Below, piece after piece: positions 1,366 to 16,051 of a stretch of DNA of 48,020 nucleotides; position 1 is the stretch's first letter, and every line of letters starts with the position of its first letter. The stretch is taken from positions 1 to 48,020 of the IMG/VR virus record IMGVR_UViG_3300036853_000256. The stretch is one strand, 5' to 3'. The position numbers and the translations under genes are program-made. The notes below the pieces were generated by a model. The model was not told where the DNA came from. It worked only from the letters and a program-made list of their open reading frames with translations, and made no database searches. Source of the DNA: a virus.

Positions 1366-1686
1366 TTACGCCCTCGACTGCAAGAAGATCTTCGAGGTCG
1401 TGGCGTTGCTTACGGTCTGCACCGTTCGCCACCGAATGAACGGCGACACCACCGTGATCGGGGTAAGACTTGTCGGCGCCGCATACGCGGCGGTCAGGTC
1501 CGTGTCCAGCGTCGAGCCGTCGAAACTGCCCTCGAGCGAATGCACCGACGTGCCGCCCGCGAAAAGGAACCACGGCAGCACGATCGTGAACCCGGTCGTA
1601 TCCAGCCACGGAGATACCAGCGGTGACGCGGCGGTCGTCAGCGGCGTCAGGTACTGCCAGATCTTGTAGCCGGGCAGAGTCGCCAT
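1366..1686 (-). CDS. Small virion-associated protein, unknown
   Basis: 106 residues beginning MATLPGYKIWQYL. The start overlaps the stop of the upstream 65-residue gene as TGATG, which fixes it at 1686. The protein is beta-rich (alternating Thr/Val/Ser, Trp-Leu-Asp-Thr-Thr-Gly, Phe-Ile-Arg-Trp-Arg-Thr-Val) with a short aromatic stretch but no convincing membrane helix. It sits between the capsid gene and the large accessory virion protein, so a minor head or decoration role is inferred. Family not recognised. Confidence 0.65.
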   Translation of the reverse strand: MATLPGYKIWQYLTPLTTAASPLVSPWLDTTGFTIVLPWFLFAGGTSVHSLEGSFDGSTLDTDLTAAYAAPTSLTPITVVSPFIRWRTVQTVSNATTSKIFLQSRA

Positions 1687-1883
1687 CAGGACGCCTTCGG
1701 CCTGCCCAGGCCGCCACGCTTCGCGGGCGGCGGCTCGGGCACCTCGTCCAGGGCGAGGTCCTCGAACTGCAGCGGCGCGCCCAGCGCGTGCGGGTGATTG
1801 TCGGGCAGCACCTTGCCCTTGGGCACGAACGTCTCGCCCCCCTCGCCGTCGGCGATGAAAAACGACTCGATGGCCTGCTTCAT
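1686..1883 (-). CDS. Small acidic protein downstream of capsid
   Basis: 65 residues, MKQAIESFFIADGEGG..., acidic with a proline-rich and basic C-terminus (EPPPAKRGG). It is the first gene after the capsid gene and the hairpin at 1931-1960, and is joined to the next gene by a TGATG overlap. No recognised domain. The position suggests a small head accessory protein, but nothing in the sequence proves it. Confidence 0.6.
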   Translation of the reverse strand: MKQAIESFFIADGEGGETFVPKGKVLPDNHPHALGAPLQFEDLALDEVPEPPPAKRGGLGRPKAS

Positions 1884-1930
1884 GCCGCGGCCTTCCTCTC
1901 AATGAGAAGTGATGCGATTCCTGGAATGGA

Positions 1931-1960
1931 AATGCCCGACACGCAGAAGTGTCGGGCATT
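1931..1960 (-). terminator. Stem-loop after the major capsid gene
   Basis: A perfect 12-bp inverted repeat (AATGCCCGACAC, six-base loop, GTGTCGGGCATT) lies 17 bases beyond the capsid stop codon, followed on the minus strand by a short TTTCC run. Such hairpins commonly end or attenuate transcripts after phage capsid genes, raising capsid expression relative to downstream genes. The weak T-run suggests partial termination. Confidence 0.75.
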
Positions 1961-1977
1961 TCCCATGCATTCTGGAG

Positions 1978-3345
1978 TCAGGCTCCCTTGAGCACCCGGA
2001 AGGCGTTCGGCGTGGACACTCCGGCACCCACGCGCCAGAACATATACCATCCTGCTTGCCCATTGGGAAGAATGCCGCCCGTGCCCTTGACCATCGGCTC
2101 GTACATGAGGCTAACGCCCACGCGGTCGACGATGTAGTAGTTGCTGAAGTCGCCGAACACGGCCATCAGCGAACCGACGGCCGGAGCGCCGCCGAACATG
2201 GTGGTCGACTCGTAGATCGGCGCGCCGAGCAGCGTCTCCGGCTGGCCCTTGCCGAGGTTCGTCCAGAAGCTCGCACCACCGGCAGTGTCGAACTGCCGGG
2301 TGCGGTTGATGTAGGCCACGTTCATCGCCCACGCCACCGACGGGGAAGTACGGAAGCGGGCCGGCAGCGCGGCCTGGATGCCGTACACGTCGGCCAAGGC
2401 GTACACCAGCGTGGTGGCCGTGGTGTACACGGTCGTCGCGCCGGTGATGATGCCGGTCGGGGTGGTCGTGCCCGGGCCGGTCGCGAACGCCGCCTCCTCG
2501 AGACGGTCCTTCGCGTCGCCGAGCAGCACCGGCAGCTGGTTGGCGAAGTCGGTGTCGGCCAGCACCTCGTACGAGCCGAACACCCACGCCGCGGCCTTCT
2601 GCGGGGTGATCTGGATGTTGCCGACCGTCGGCGTGTTGTCGGTGACGATCGTCGCCTCAGCGAGCCACGCCGCGTTGACGCCGGCGGAGGTGACGCCGTT
2701 CCAGGTGTTCGAGGTGGTCTGCTTGATGTTGGAGATCCGCCGCCACGGGTTCGCCGAGGCGGAGTTGGTCAGCACGATCGTCGGGTCCAGGACGAACGGG
2801 AGCATGTAGCCGCCGTTCGCGAGGGTCAGTGACAGCGCCGCACGCGAGGCCTGGCCCTCCGGGTCCTCGACGTACGCCTGGAACGCCTTCTGGTACTCGT
2901 CGGAGCCGGTCAGCAGCAGGTGCCGGGCGATGCCCGGGTCCTGCTGGACCTTGACCGTCGCGGCCTCGGCGAAGTCGCTGTTCATCTGGCCGACCCGGTT
3001 GCAGCGCTCGATGGCGGTCTGCGCGCGGGCGATCATGTCAGCGCGGTGGATCATCTTCGAGCGGACCGCGTCCAGGTCCTGGAACGGGTCCATGTCGCGG
3101 CTGACGACCAGGTCGGGCGTGGTCTTCTCGACCTTCCGCTCGTCCTTGGCCGCGTAACGGACGGCGTCGAGGCGTTCCATCCGGGCGGCGAGCGGCTTGC
3201 GCTGCTCCTCCAGCTCGTCCCACTCGGTGAGCAGGGTATCGGTGTAGGCCTCGTCCTCGTCGGTGCGGTCTTCCTTCTTCTCGATCTCAAGCAGTTCGGC
3301 TCGGACGGCCGTCTGCCGGTCGAGGATGTCCTGCAGCTTCATCAT
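1978..3345 (-). CDS. Major capsid protein, HK97 fold
   Basis: 455 residues, the shell subunit of the icosahedral head. Residues 1-75 are a charged coiled coil (ELLEIEKKEDRTDEDE, EWDELEEQ), the usual N-terminal delta/scaffold domain cleaved during maturation. The rest is a typical HK97-type core: AALSLTLANGGYMLPF, a WNGVTSAGVNAAWLAE E-loop-like stretch, an ITPQKAAAWVFGSYEVL spine region, and a C-terminal segment with FGDFSNYYIVDR. Start at 3345 with GAGAGG upstream; it overlaps the protease gene by 59 bases. A hairpin terminator follows. Assignment is firm from motif pattern and from the protease and portal upstream. Confidence 0.95.
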   Translation of the reverse strand: MMKLQDILDRQTAVRAELLEIEKKEDRTDEDEAYTDTLLTEWDELEEQRKPLAARMERLDAVRYAAKDERKVEKTTPDLVVSRDMDPFQDLDAVRSKMIHRADMIARAQTAIERCNRVGQMNSDFAEAATVKVQQDPGIARHLLLTGSDEYQKAFQAYVEDPEGQASRAALSLTLANGGYMLPFVLDPTIVLTNSASANPWRRISNIKQTTSNTWNGVTSAGVNAAWLAEATIVTDNTPTVGNIQITPQKAAAWVFGSYEVLADTDFANQLPVLLGDAKDRLEEAAFATGPGTTTPTGIITGATTVYTTATTLVYALADVYGIQAALPARFRTSPSVAWAMNVAYINRTRQFDTAGGASFWTNLGKGQPETLLGAPIYESTTMFGGAPAVGSLMAVFGDFSNYYIVDRVGVSLMYEPMVKGTGGILPNGQAGWYMFWRVGAGVSTPNAFRVLKGA

Positions 3346-14697: not shown

Positions 14698-15525
14698 TCA
14701 GGCGGCCCCTTTCTGCGCGTCGAATAGTTCGAGCTGAACAATTCGCTCGCGCGCAGGTGTACCGATCAGATCGAGGACGCCTTGACGCCATTGCAGGGCG
14801 TAGGTGAGGCAGTTGGCGCAGTTCCTGTGGCCCACGCAGCCGCTCAGCGGGGCGCTGCGCCGGCCGTCGTAGGACCAGGCCATCGAATCGGCGGTGTTCA
14901 GGTGCACGCCGTACCGCTCCAGACCCTGCTTCTTCACGCCGAAGCCGTGGATCGGCAGGCCGTCGTCTAGCTGGCGCAGGACCTGCATGATCTCGCCGAT
15001 CTCGTCGGTGGCCTGCCGCCGACACACGGAGCCCACGCCGACGACGGGGTAGTTCCGGATGTCAATCCCGGCGGCGTCGTAGAGGTCCCAGCAGCGCAGG
15101 TAGTCGTCGCGGTCCCAGCCCTGCAGAACCGGCATGAACGGGCTCTCCGACTCGTCGCCCCACAGGTCCTGCAGCTGCACGAAGTTGGCGACGGTGCGGC
15201 GCTGGTGCTCGGCGATGGTGAGGCCGGTCTTGGCGAGCATGAACGGCTCGCACATCCAGTCCTGCGGCGTTGCCCAGCCGAGCTCGCCGATCTCCTCGTC
15301 GTAGCGGCGTACCGCGGCGACGTACTCCTGCGGGGTGGTACGCCACTCGCCGTAGAGGCTGAGTTCGGAGAAGCCGCCGGAGTCAAGTGCCCAGTGCACG
15401 CGGGCGCGTGGCAGCGTCTTGCGGCCGGCGAGCCTGCGGTGGGAGACGAACAGGCACAGGTCGGTGGGCAGGCCGTCGGCTTCGAGCCAGTTCGGCATGT
15501 GGGTGCCGAGGTAGAAGCACTCCAT
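14698..15525 (-). CDS. DpdA/TGT-like 7-deazaguanine base-exchange protein
   Basis: 275 residues with the pattern of tRNA-guanine transglycosylase-like barrels in phages: ALDSGGF with Asp48, EEIGELGWATPQDWMCEP (Asp89), VLQGWDRDDYLRC, VVGVGSV, PIHGFGVKK and TADSMAWS (Asp213). A Cys/His cluster (Cys230, His233, Cys236, Cys239) matches the expected zinc site. Phage members of this family (DpdA) replace guanine in DNA with 7-deazaguanines and protect against restriction. No preQ0 synthesis gene is visible here, so the host would have to supply the base. It could also act on RNA. Start at 15525 by TGATG overlap; a terminator follows. Confidence 0.75.
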   Translation of the reverse strand: MECFYLGTHMPNWLEADGLPTDLCLFVSHRRLAGRKTLPRARVHWALDSGGFSELSLYGEWRTTPQEYVAAVRRYDEEIGELGWATPQDWMCEPFMLAKTGLTIAEHQRRTVANFVQLQDLWGDESESPFMPVLQGWDRDDYLRCWDLYDAAGIDIRNYPVVGVGSVCRRQATDEIGEIMQVLRQLDDGLPIHGFGVKKQGLERYGVHLNTADSMAWSYDGRRSAPLSGCVGHRNCANCLTYALQWRQGVLDLIGTPARERIVQLELFDAQKGAA

Positions 15526-15686
15526 CAGCCCTCACCTCGCTCATCGGCGGTTCGCCGGAGGGCGCCCTCTCGGCGCAGTGCCTCAAGGACTCGGCTCGCG
15601 GCGCGCAGGTCGTCCGGTTCGGCCTTGCCGTTGCCGATGGCTACCGCGACGGCCACGAGCCAACCAGGCGGAAAGTCGAGGCTCAC
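15525..15686 (-). CDS. Small protein upstream of the DpdA-like gene
   Basis: 53 residues from a GTG at 15686 (VSLDFPPGWLVAVAVAIGNG...), with GTGA overlap upstream and TGATG overlap downstream. A short hydrophobic N-terminal helix is followed by a charged helix (DLRAASRVLEALRREG). The tight junctions on both sides are good evidence that it is translated. Function unknown; co-transcription with the DpdA-like gene is clear. Confidence 0.65.
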   Translation of the reverse strand: MSLDFPPGWLVAVAVAIGNGKAEPDDLRAASRVLEALRREGALRRTADERGEG

Positions 15687-16051
15687 CCTTCGCTCCTCTC
15701 GCCGGCGGCAGCGCTACGGGCGTCCTGCTCCGGTGGCGGCAGTGCTTCGGCCCACGTGAACATCACGCCAGGCGCGCCGCGAACGGCGTCCTCGATCCAG
15801 GTCCGGCCGCTGAGCCCATAGCCGTCGCGCCACCAACCCGGCACCAGGTAGGCGATGTGGAACGAGTCAGCGTCCCCGTACCAGGCCGCGCACGCCTCAT
15901 GCGCCTTAGCGCTGGCCGGGCCTTGCGGGTCGAGGGTGCCGAACACGATGCAGCCGCTATCGAACTCCTCGGCGTTCTCCCACGCGCGCACCCACAGGTC
16001 TCGGCGACGCGGGCGGTAGACGCGGCCGTTCGGCCGGACGAACTCCGTCAT
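15683..16051 (-). CDS. Hypothetical early protein
   Basis: 122 residues with many Trp and Tyr (LWVRAWENAEEF, AAWYGDADSFHIAYLVPGWWRDGYG, GVMFTWAEAL). It reads as a compact soluble domain. Four-base overlaps join it to both neighbours. Not recognised; its place just before the DpdA-like gene makes a modification-related role conceivable but unproven. Confidence 0.6.
   Translation of the reverse strand: MTEFVRPNGRVYRPRRRDLWVRAWENAEEFDSGCIVFGTLDPQGPASAKAHEACAAWYGDADSFHIAYLVPGWWRDGYGLSGRTWIEDAVRGAPGVMFTWAEALPPPEQDARSAAAGERSEG

Follow-up and report, generated by a model that had tools for sequence, protein, structure and literature searches.

The gene at positions 14698–15525 (minus strand) of the viral record IMGVR_UViG_3300036853_000256, whose full stretch of 48,020 nucleotides is called the window here, is a member of the already known class of stand-alone dpdA genes, whose function was left open by Hutinet et al. 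(PMC6884629). Judging from its sequence and predicted structure, the product is very probably an active DNA transglycosylase, and we think it probable that the enzyme is fed by a scavenged or host-made base and stands idle where no such base is present. A stand-alone DpdA of family PF23859 would replace guanine in DNA with preQ0 or a closely related 7-deazaguanine, using the double-displacement reaction of the tRNA-guanine transglycosylases (TGTs), with Asp213 as the nucleophile. The base would not be made by the phage but would have its source outside the phage genome, either by scavenging via a YhhQ-type (VUT/QPTR) transporter, the coupled second gene in many relatives, or from a preQ0-producing host, which among actinobacteria mostly makes it by way of its own Dpd restriction system. 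Such modification would shield the DNA from restriction and, where the host has a Dpd system, possibly from that system as well.

The open reading frame is intact and encodes 275 amino acids. The protein matches PF23859 (‘DpdA, DeoxyPurine in DNA protein A’) along the domain (positions 3–249 of 291) with 368 bits (E=3.6e-110), the curated cut-off being 27 bits, and it matches phrog_1279 (‘queuine tRNA-ribosyltransferase’) at 3e-112. Structure comparison was used in place of profile comparison against single TGT or bacterial DpdA sequences. The AlphaFold2 model, built on 45 relatives, has a mean pLDDT of 92.4, and the 18 PDB structures that it matches at E<=0.001 are without exception tRNA-guanine transglycosylases; a search of the PDB by sequence with the window protein found nothing. 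The DpdA/TGT-like protein proposed in the first-pass annotation is thus confirmed by both the family match and the predicted fold. With the tRNA TGTs (PF01702) the protein shares the fold and the order of the DSGGF, D, QG, GG and D motifs; unlike them, it gives no match to PF01702, and so it is not a tRNA TGT by family. The DpdA proteins of bacterial Dpd systems also share the TGT-like fold and presumably carry out the same reaction, the insertion of preQ0 into DNA, but they are larger. No PADLOC DpdA model matched the window protein, no dpdB–K gene was seen in the window, and there is no DndB/DpdB-type family among its listed Pfam matches, which places the protein outside the bacterial Dpd-system DpdAs.

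Conservation of the catalytic residues was followed in a sample of 129 non-identical, diverse PF23859 proteins. Asp48 of the ALDSGGF motif (codon at 15382–15384) is present in 128 of the 129, being absent only from one fragment with a gap there, while Asp89 of the QDWMCEP motif (15259–15261) and Asp213 of the ADSMAWS motif (14887–14889; all three codons on the minus strand) occur in 129/129. The three motifs match, in order, the TDSGGFQ, LDECx and FDCVxPTR motifs of TGT, and from what is known of TGT we take Asp48 to be the general acid/base, Asp89 the residue that recognizes the base and Asp213 the nucleophile. D89, E93, Q135, G136, G163, G165, C168, G196, K198, D213, S214 and S218 do not change in any of these relatives. 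The invariance of D48, D89, Q135, G163, G165, K198 and D213 across such diverse proteins speaks against decay or a solely structural role, and the enzyme of the window looks catalytically intact; the acidic positions earlier recognized as TGT-like are indeed those kept throughout the family. The Cys/His cluster noticed at the same time is real as well, a C-x2-H-x2-C-x2-C arrangement (C230, H233, C236 and C239, encoded at 14809–14838 on the minus strand) that is a probable zinc site. However, it is limited to the actinobacterial branch, where most sequences have it, some with C230 replaced by H or C236 by E, and it is missing from the rhizobial branch; it is therefore dispensable for the core function of the family. 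It also differs in its order from the zinc site of TGT.

Hutinet et al. 2019 described 76 phages that have DpdA and lack the synthesis genes, and for one of them, the mycobacteriophage Orion (B1), LC-MS/MS detected no 7-deazaguanine in the phage from M. smegmatis, this host having none of the pathway (PMC6884629). Rosebush, which has synthesis genes, carries dPreQ0 at about 28% of G, CAjan also carries dPreQ0, and the DpdA of 9g alone inserts dPreQ0 from the preQ0 of E. coli itself (PMC6884629). The comparison with the phage DpdA groups, suggested in the first-pass annotation, places the window protein with the stand-alone DpdAs of mycobacteriophages and not with the pathway-linked ones. A tblastn search of GenBank phages matched 400 records, 391 of which are mycobacteriophages, the best of these with 56–62% identity over 90–99% of the protein and the B1 relatives of Orion with 58–59%; Rosebush-type phages are not among the listed matches. 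Rosebush, Orion and Qyrzula were represented in the comparisons by Hedgerow, Ares and Pops. The window protein is therefore like group 3 of Hutinet et al. (Orion, B1 and Weiservirinae mycobacteriophages) in belonging to the same family and having no synthesis genes, which here means FolE, QueD, QueE and QueC in a linear record, amidotransferases not being among the named searches. The window has no dpdA-flanking genes in common with the group 3 mycobacteriophages and the other loci compared. The pathway-linked DpdAs (Rosebush-type B2, CAjan and 9g) have TGT-like chemistry and the same motif order, but the profile match of the window protein is weak to Hedgerow gp2 (hhalign 95.7%) and lower still to CAjan gp35 (28.7%); they adjoin folE-queD-queE-queC, unlike the gene of the window, and were not reached by tblastn from it. 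The stand-alone phage DpdAs cluster apart from the pathway-linked DpdAs, and functional divergence was left open by the authors (PMC6884629). This would suit a diverged enzyme of TGT fold with another substrate (tRNA, protein, or the removal of modified bases), which we regard as quite improbable, the set of catalytic Asp residues being the same.

The record is a 48-kb viral contig with 69% G+C, and its genes for an integrase, an excisionase, RecT, exonuclease VIII, an HK97-type capsid and portal, a terminase, a holin and an endolysin indicate a temperate siphovirus, which is an uncultured soil phage with a probably actinobacterial host. A domain search found no QueC, QueD or TGT domain in it, the best 25 of the 29 Pfam matches from its 72 proteins include no Que or FolE family, and phage and host QueC, QueD, QueE and FolE queries gave nothing better than E ~1. 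The absence of queC/D/E and folE reported from the first inspection thus stands, for the 48 kb present in a linear and possibly incomplete contig. None of 27 related viral records searched has QueC, QueD or TGT. Upstream of dpdA and on the same strand lie an ORF of 53 amino acids (15525–15686), which ends in an overlap with the start codon of dpdA (TGATG), and a gene for a 122-amino-acid phage protein of unknown function (phrog_20101; 15683–16051). These had been put forward as possible partners, but no homologue of either was found beside dpdA in about 60 loci, so the 122-amino-acid protein is not a conserved partner and the 53-amino-acid ORF is probably only translationally coupled. A DpdB/ParB-like partner was also considered and rejected, as none occurs among the conserved neighbours.

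At the DNA level the window resembles known phages only in dpdA and over a short stretch of portal sequence, which suggests that dpdA travels as a single mobile gene. Such a gene might be a neutral hitch-hiker, that is, a moron acquired from ancestors that had the base, now mostly idle and leaving the phage DNA unmodified. The unmodified DNA of Orion (PMC6884629), the lack of QueC in most positive host genomes and the lack of conserved dpdA neighbours besides a transporter would all agree with this. Nevertheless, an idle gene should decay, and the catalytic residues are invariant in the 129 relatives; considering also the repeated pairing with a transporter of the preQ0 type, described below, we judge such an origin unlikely.

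When the neighbours of dpdA were clustered, the recurring plausible companion was a gene for a membrane protein of PF02592 (VUT, YhhQ/QPTR-like), the other recurring neighbours being integrases and common phage genes. It is present in 22 of 80 dpdA loci fetched by the family profile (a count that includes the near-duplicate pair L118/L132), always on the same strand, mostly overlapping and at most ~700 bp away. In L001 and L004, whose enzymes are the closest relatives of that encoded in the window (70% identical), the transporter gene lies directly upstream and its stop codon runs into the start of dpdA. No PF02592 or YhhQ-like ORF occurs anywhere in the window, which thus lacks the pair that L001 carries. 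On a tree of 129 sequences, which includes loci found through the transporter so that its 35/129 is no frequency, the transporter trait needs about 20 changes, at least 4 of them forced by well-supported branches, which indicates that the pair was formed or broken repeatedly. Synthesis-type genes lie within 6 kb of dpdA (PF23859) in two exceptional loci, L155 with a QueC-like and L137 with a FolE-like gene.

The reverse search is the stronger test of this linkage. Among the best 80 of 208 viral transporter loci, retrieved by transporter similarity alone and with near-duplicate contigs counted, 75 have an adjacent TGT-like gene on the same strand (20 of PF23859, 20 of phrog_887 and 35 of phrog_15826), and Que genes lie within 4 kb in only two (L220 and L235). 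Although the search was seeded with PF23859-linked transporters, 55 of the 75 neighbours are members of phrog_887 or phrog_15826, and the outcome is therefore not due to the choice of seeds. Whereas phrog_887 is annotated as ‘queuine tRNA-ribosyltransferase’, phrog_15826 is annotated as ‘unknown function’. The latter keeps D43, Q104-x-G106, G123-G124, H149-x-G151-R152 and D171, and the structures matched by its model are TIM barrels, among them TGTs and the solved DpdA that inserts preQ0 into DNA (7ui4), although these matches are less exclusively TGT than those of the window protein's model. It looks like a third phage TGT/DpdA-like family, seen for example in L205, L210 and L221 among L197–L276. 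Another match of the phrog_15826 model is Cap10 from a CBASS-type complex (PDB 9ntn), a TGT-like protein not known to act on DNA. This match speaks for the improbable reading of another substrate, and the linkage of a 7-deazaguanine-type transporter to all three phage TGT-like families speaks against it.

Cultured phages have the pair as well: Mycobacterium phage GreaseLightnin (gp54-gp55), Rhodococcus phage ReqiPine5 (gp04-gp03), Arthrobacter phage Aoka (gp38/gp40), Rhizobium phage RHph_N3_2, Pseudanabaena phage Pam5 and Sinorhizobium phage phiLM21. In GreaseLightnin, a Fishburnevirus of M. smegmatis, both genes (L277:2483-3644) are annotated as encoding hypothetical proteins. The QPTR (YhhQ) of E. 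coli transports preQ0 and preQ1 while that of Chlamydia transports queuine (PMC11130926), and so the phage pair may use preQ0 or another such base. Phage homologues of YhhQ were seen by Hutinet et al. and did not correlate with any phage group (PMC6884629); our literature searches found no earlier report of the pairing of the transporter with a TGT-like gene.

The first-pass annotation had supposed that the base is made by the host, and its suggestion to look for preQ0 synthesis in host genomes was followed. Actinobacterial genomes with a DpdA of the window type include Actinocrinis, Allonocardiopsis, Parafrankia, Actinoplanes, Virgisporangium, Dactylosporangium and Streptomyces. In the eight genomes first examined, QueC and QueD occur in four and a full tRNA TGT in none, the one weak match being a bacterial DpdA; the tRNA queuosine pathway of the host was therefore rejected as the source of the base, and a role of the phage enzyme in making tRNA-Q is unlikely. 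True QueC is present in 5 and absent from 10 of the 15 actinobacterial genomes with phage-type dpdA. Four of the five (Actinocrinis, Allonocardiopsis, Actinoplanes and S. oceani) have queC-queE-queD-folE2 beside dpd genes, and in the fifth (G266) a bacterial DpdA is also next to queC-queE-queD-folE2 genes. By PADLOC and Pfam, the Actinocrinis proteins and the DpdA of two others belong to a Dpd restriction system (DpdA, B, C, E, F and, weakly, G). Among 395 genomes sampled evenly from the class, with the centre genome G009 included, 9 have PF23859 above the cut-off, 13 have true QueC and 3 have full-strength bacterial DpdA. QueC was found in 5/15 PF23859-positive versus 11/386 negative actinobacterial genomes (Fisher 1.2e-4, a pooled value that mixes differently found genomes and is not corrected for kinship or genome size). 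Of 14 actinobacterial genomes with phage-type dpdA, 8 lack both QueC and a PF02592 transporter (G004, G005, G006, G008, G088, G115, G208 and G323).

As two thirds of the positive genomes lack QueC, host supply, perhaps together with defence against Dpd, is plausible only for a minority of cases. The supposition of a host-made base is thus upheld in part, for the genomes that have QueC with a Dpd system of their own; the other ten genomes, the finding for Orion in M. smegmatis (PMC6884629) and the gene linkage, which points at least equally to import, tell against it as a general source. Several further observations were made on the host systems. Actinobacterial Dpd systems with queC-queE-queD-folE2 beside the dpd genes are found in L087, L088, L089, L090, L091 and L093; dpdA is flanked by two DpdB copies in L087 and likewise in several of the other loci. 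In L093 a YhhQ-like transporter gene (1611-2546, minus strand) lies in or beside a host Dpd cluster that has preQ0 synthesis genes. Moreover, G539 has five matches to phage-type DpdA, two of which are adjacent pieces of one gene, in addition to a DpdA of the bacterial Dpd system.

The co-occurrence with dpd genes bears on a possible counter-defence, in which the phage DpdA would mark phage DNA with host preQ0 so that the Dpd nucleases of the host read it as self; synthesis genes would be needless because exactly the Dpd hosts make preQ0. The dpd genes were found in 5/15 positive versus 1/386 negative actinobacterial genomes (Fisher 2e-7), but this pooled value, too, mixes genome sources and takes no account of kinship and genome size. 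In the family of the Actinoplanes genome, dpd occurs in 3/17 positives versus 6/153 others (p 0.048, centre genome excluded), whereas in the genus of G393, called mycobacterial from plasmid similarity only, it occurs in 0/9 positives though 5/160 other genomes there have it. With three strata, one of them (the third) approximate, the odds ratio is 4.6 (p 0.024). Considering this weakening on stratification, the absence from the mycobacterial-type genus and the 10 of 15 positive genomes without a dpd system, we rejected counter-defence as the main explanation; it is an improbable reading, though less so than the hitch-hiker, which in turn is less improbable than another substrate.

We thus return to an active enzyme that depends on a base from outside the phage. 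The 368-bit match to PF23859, the TGT fold, the invariant residues, the transporter linkage and the enrichment of QueC in hosts were counted for it, and the unmodified Orion, the 8/14 genomes without QueC and PF02592 and the lack of a transporter in the window against it. The neighbourhood evidence from the relatives favours salvage as the general strategy, and host supply is likely the fallback of transporter-less phages such as that of the window; since this phage has no transporter, synthesis or import by the host are both possible in its case. More broadly, we suggest tentatively that many phages lacking synthesis genes might modify their DNA by salvage. In these an importer of the YhhQ/QPTR type and a TGT-like transglycosylase (PF23859, phrog_887 or phrog_15826), paired as a two-gene cassette, would take up environmental preQ0-type bases and write them into phage DNA, and the transporter-less form in the window might depend on the host, either for import of the base or for its synthesis, which often serves the host's Dpd system.

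Among 7-deazaguanine phages, those with stand-alone DpdAs were the most numerous group and the one least understood. The frequent pairing of YhhQ-like and TGT-like genes in phages without synthesis genes offers a direct and testable answer, salvage, and points to cultured phages in which it could be tested, such as GreaseLightnin (on M. smegmatis mc2 155) and the Sinorhizobium phage phiLM21. Salvage would also account for a phage appearing unmodified when it is grown in the absence of the base.
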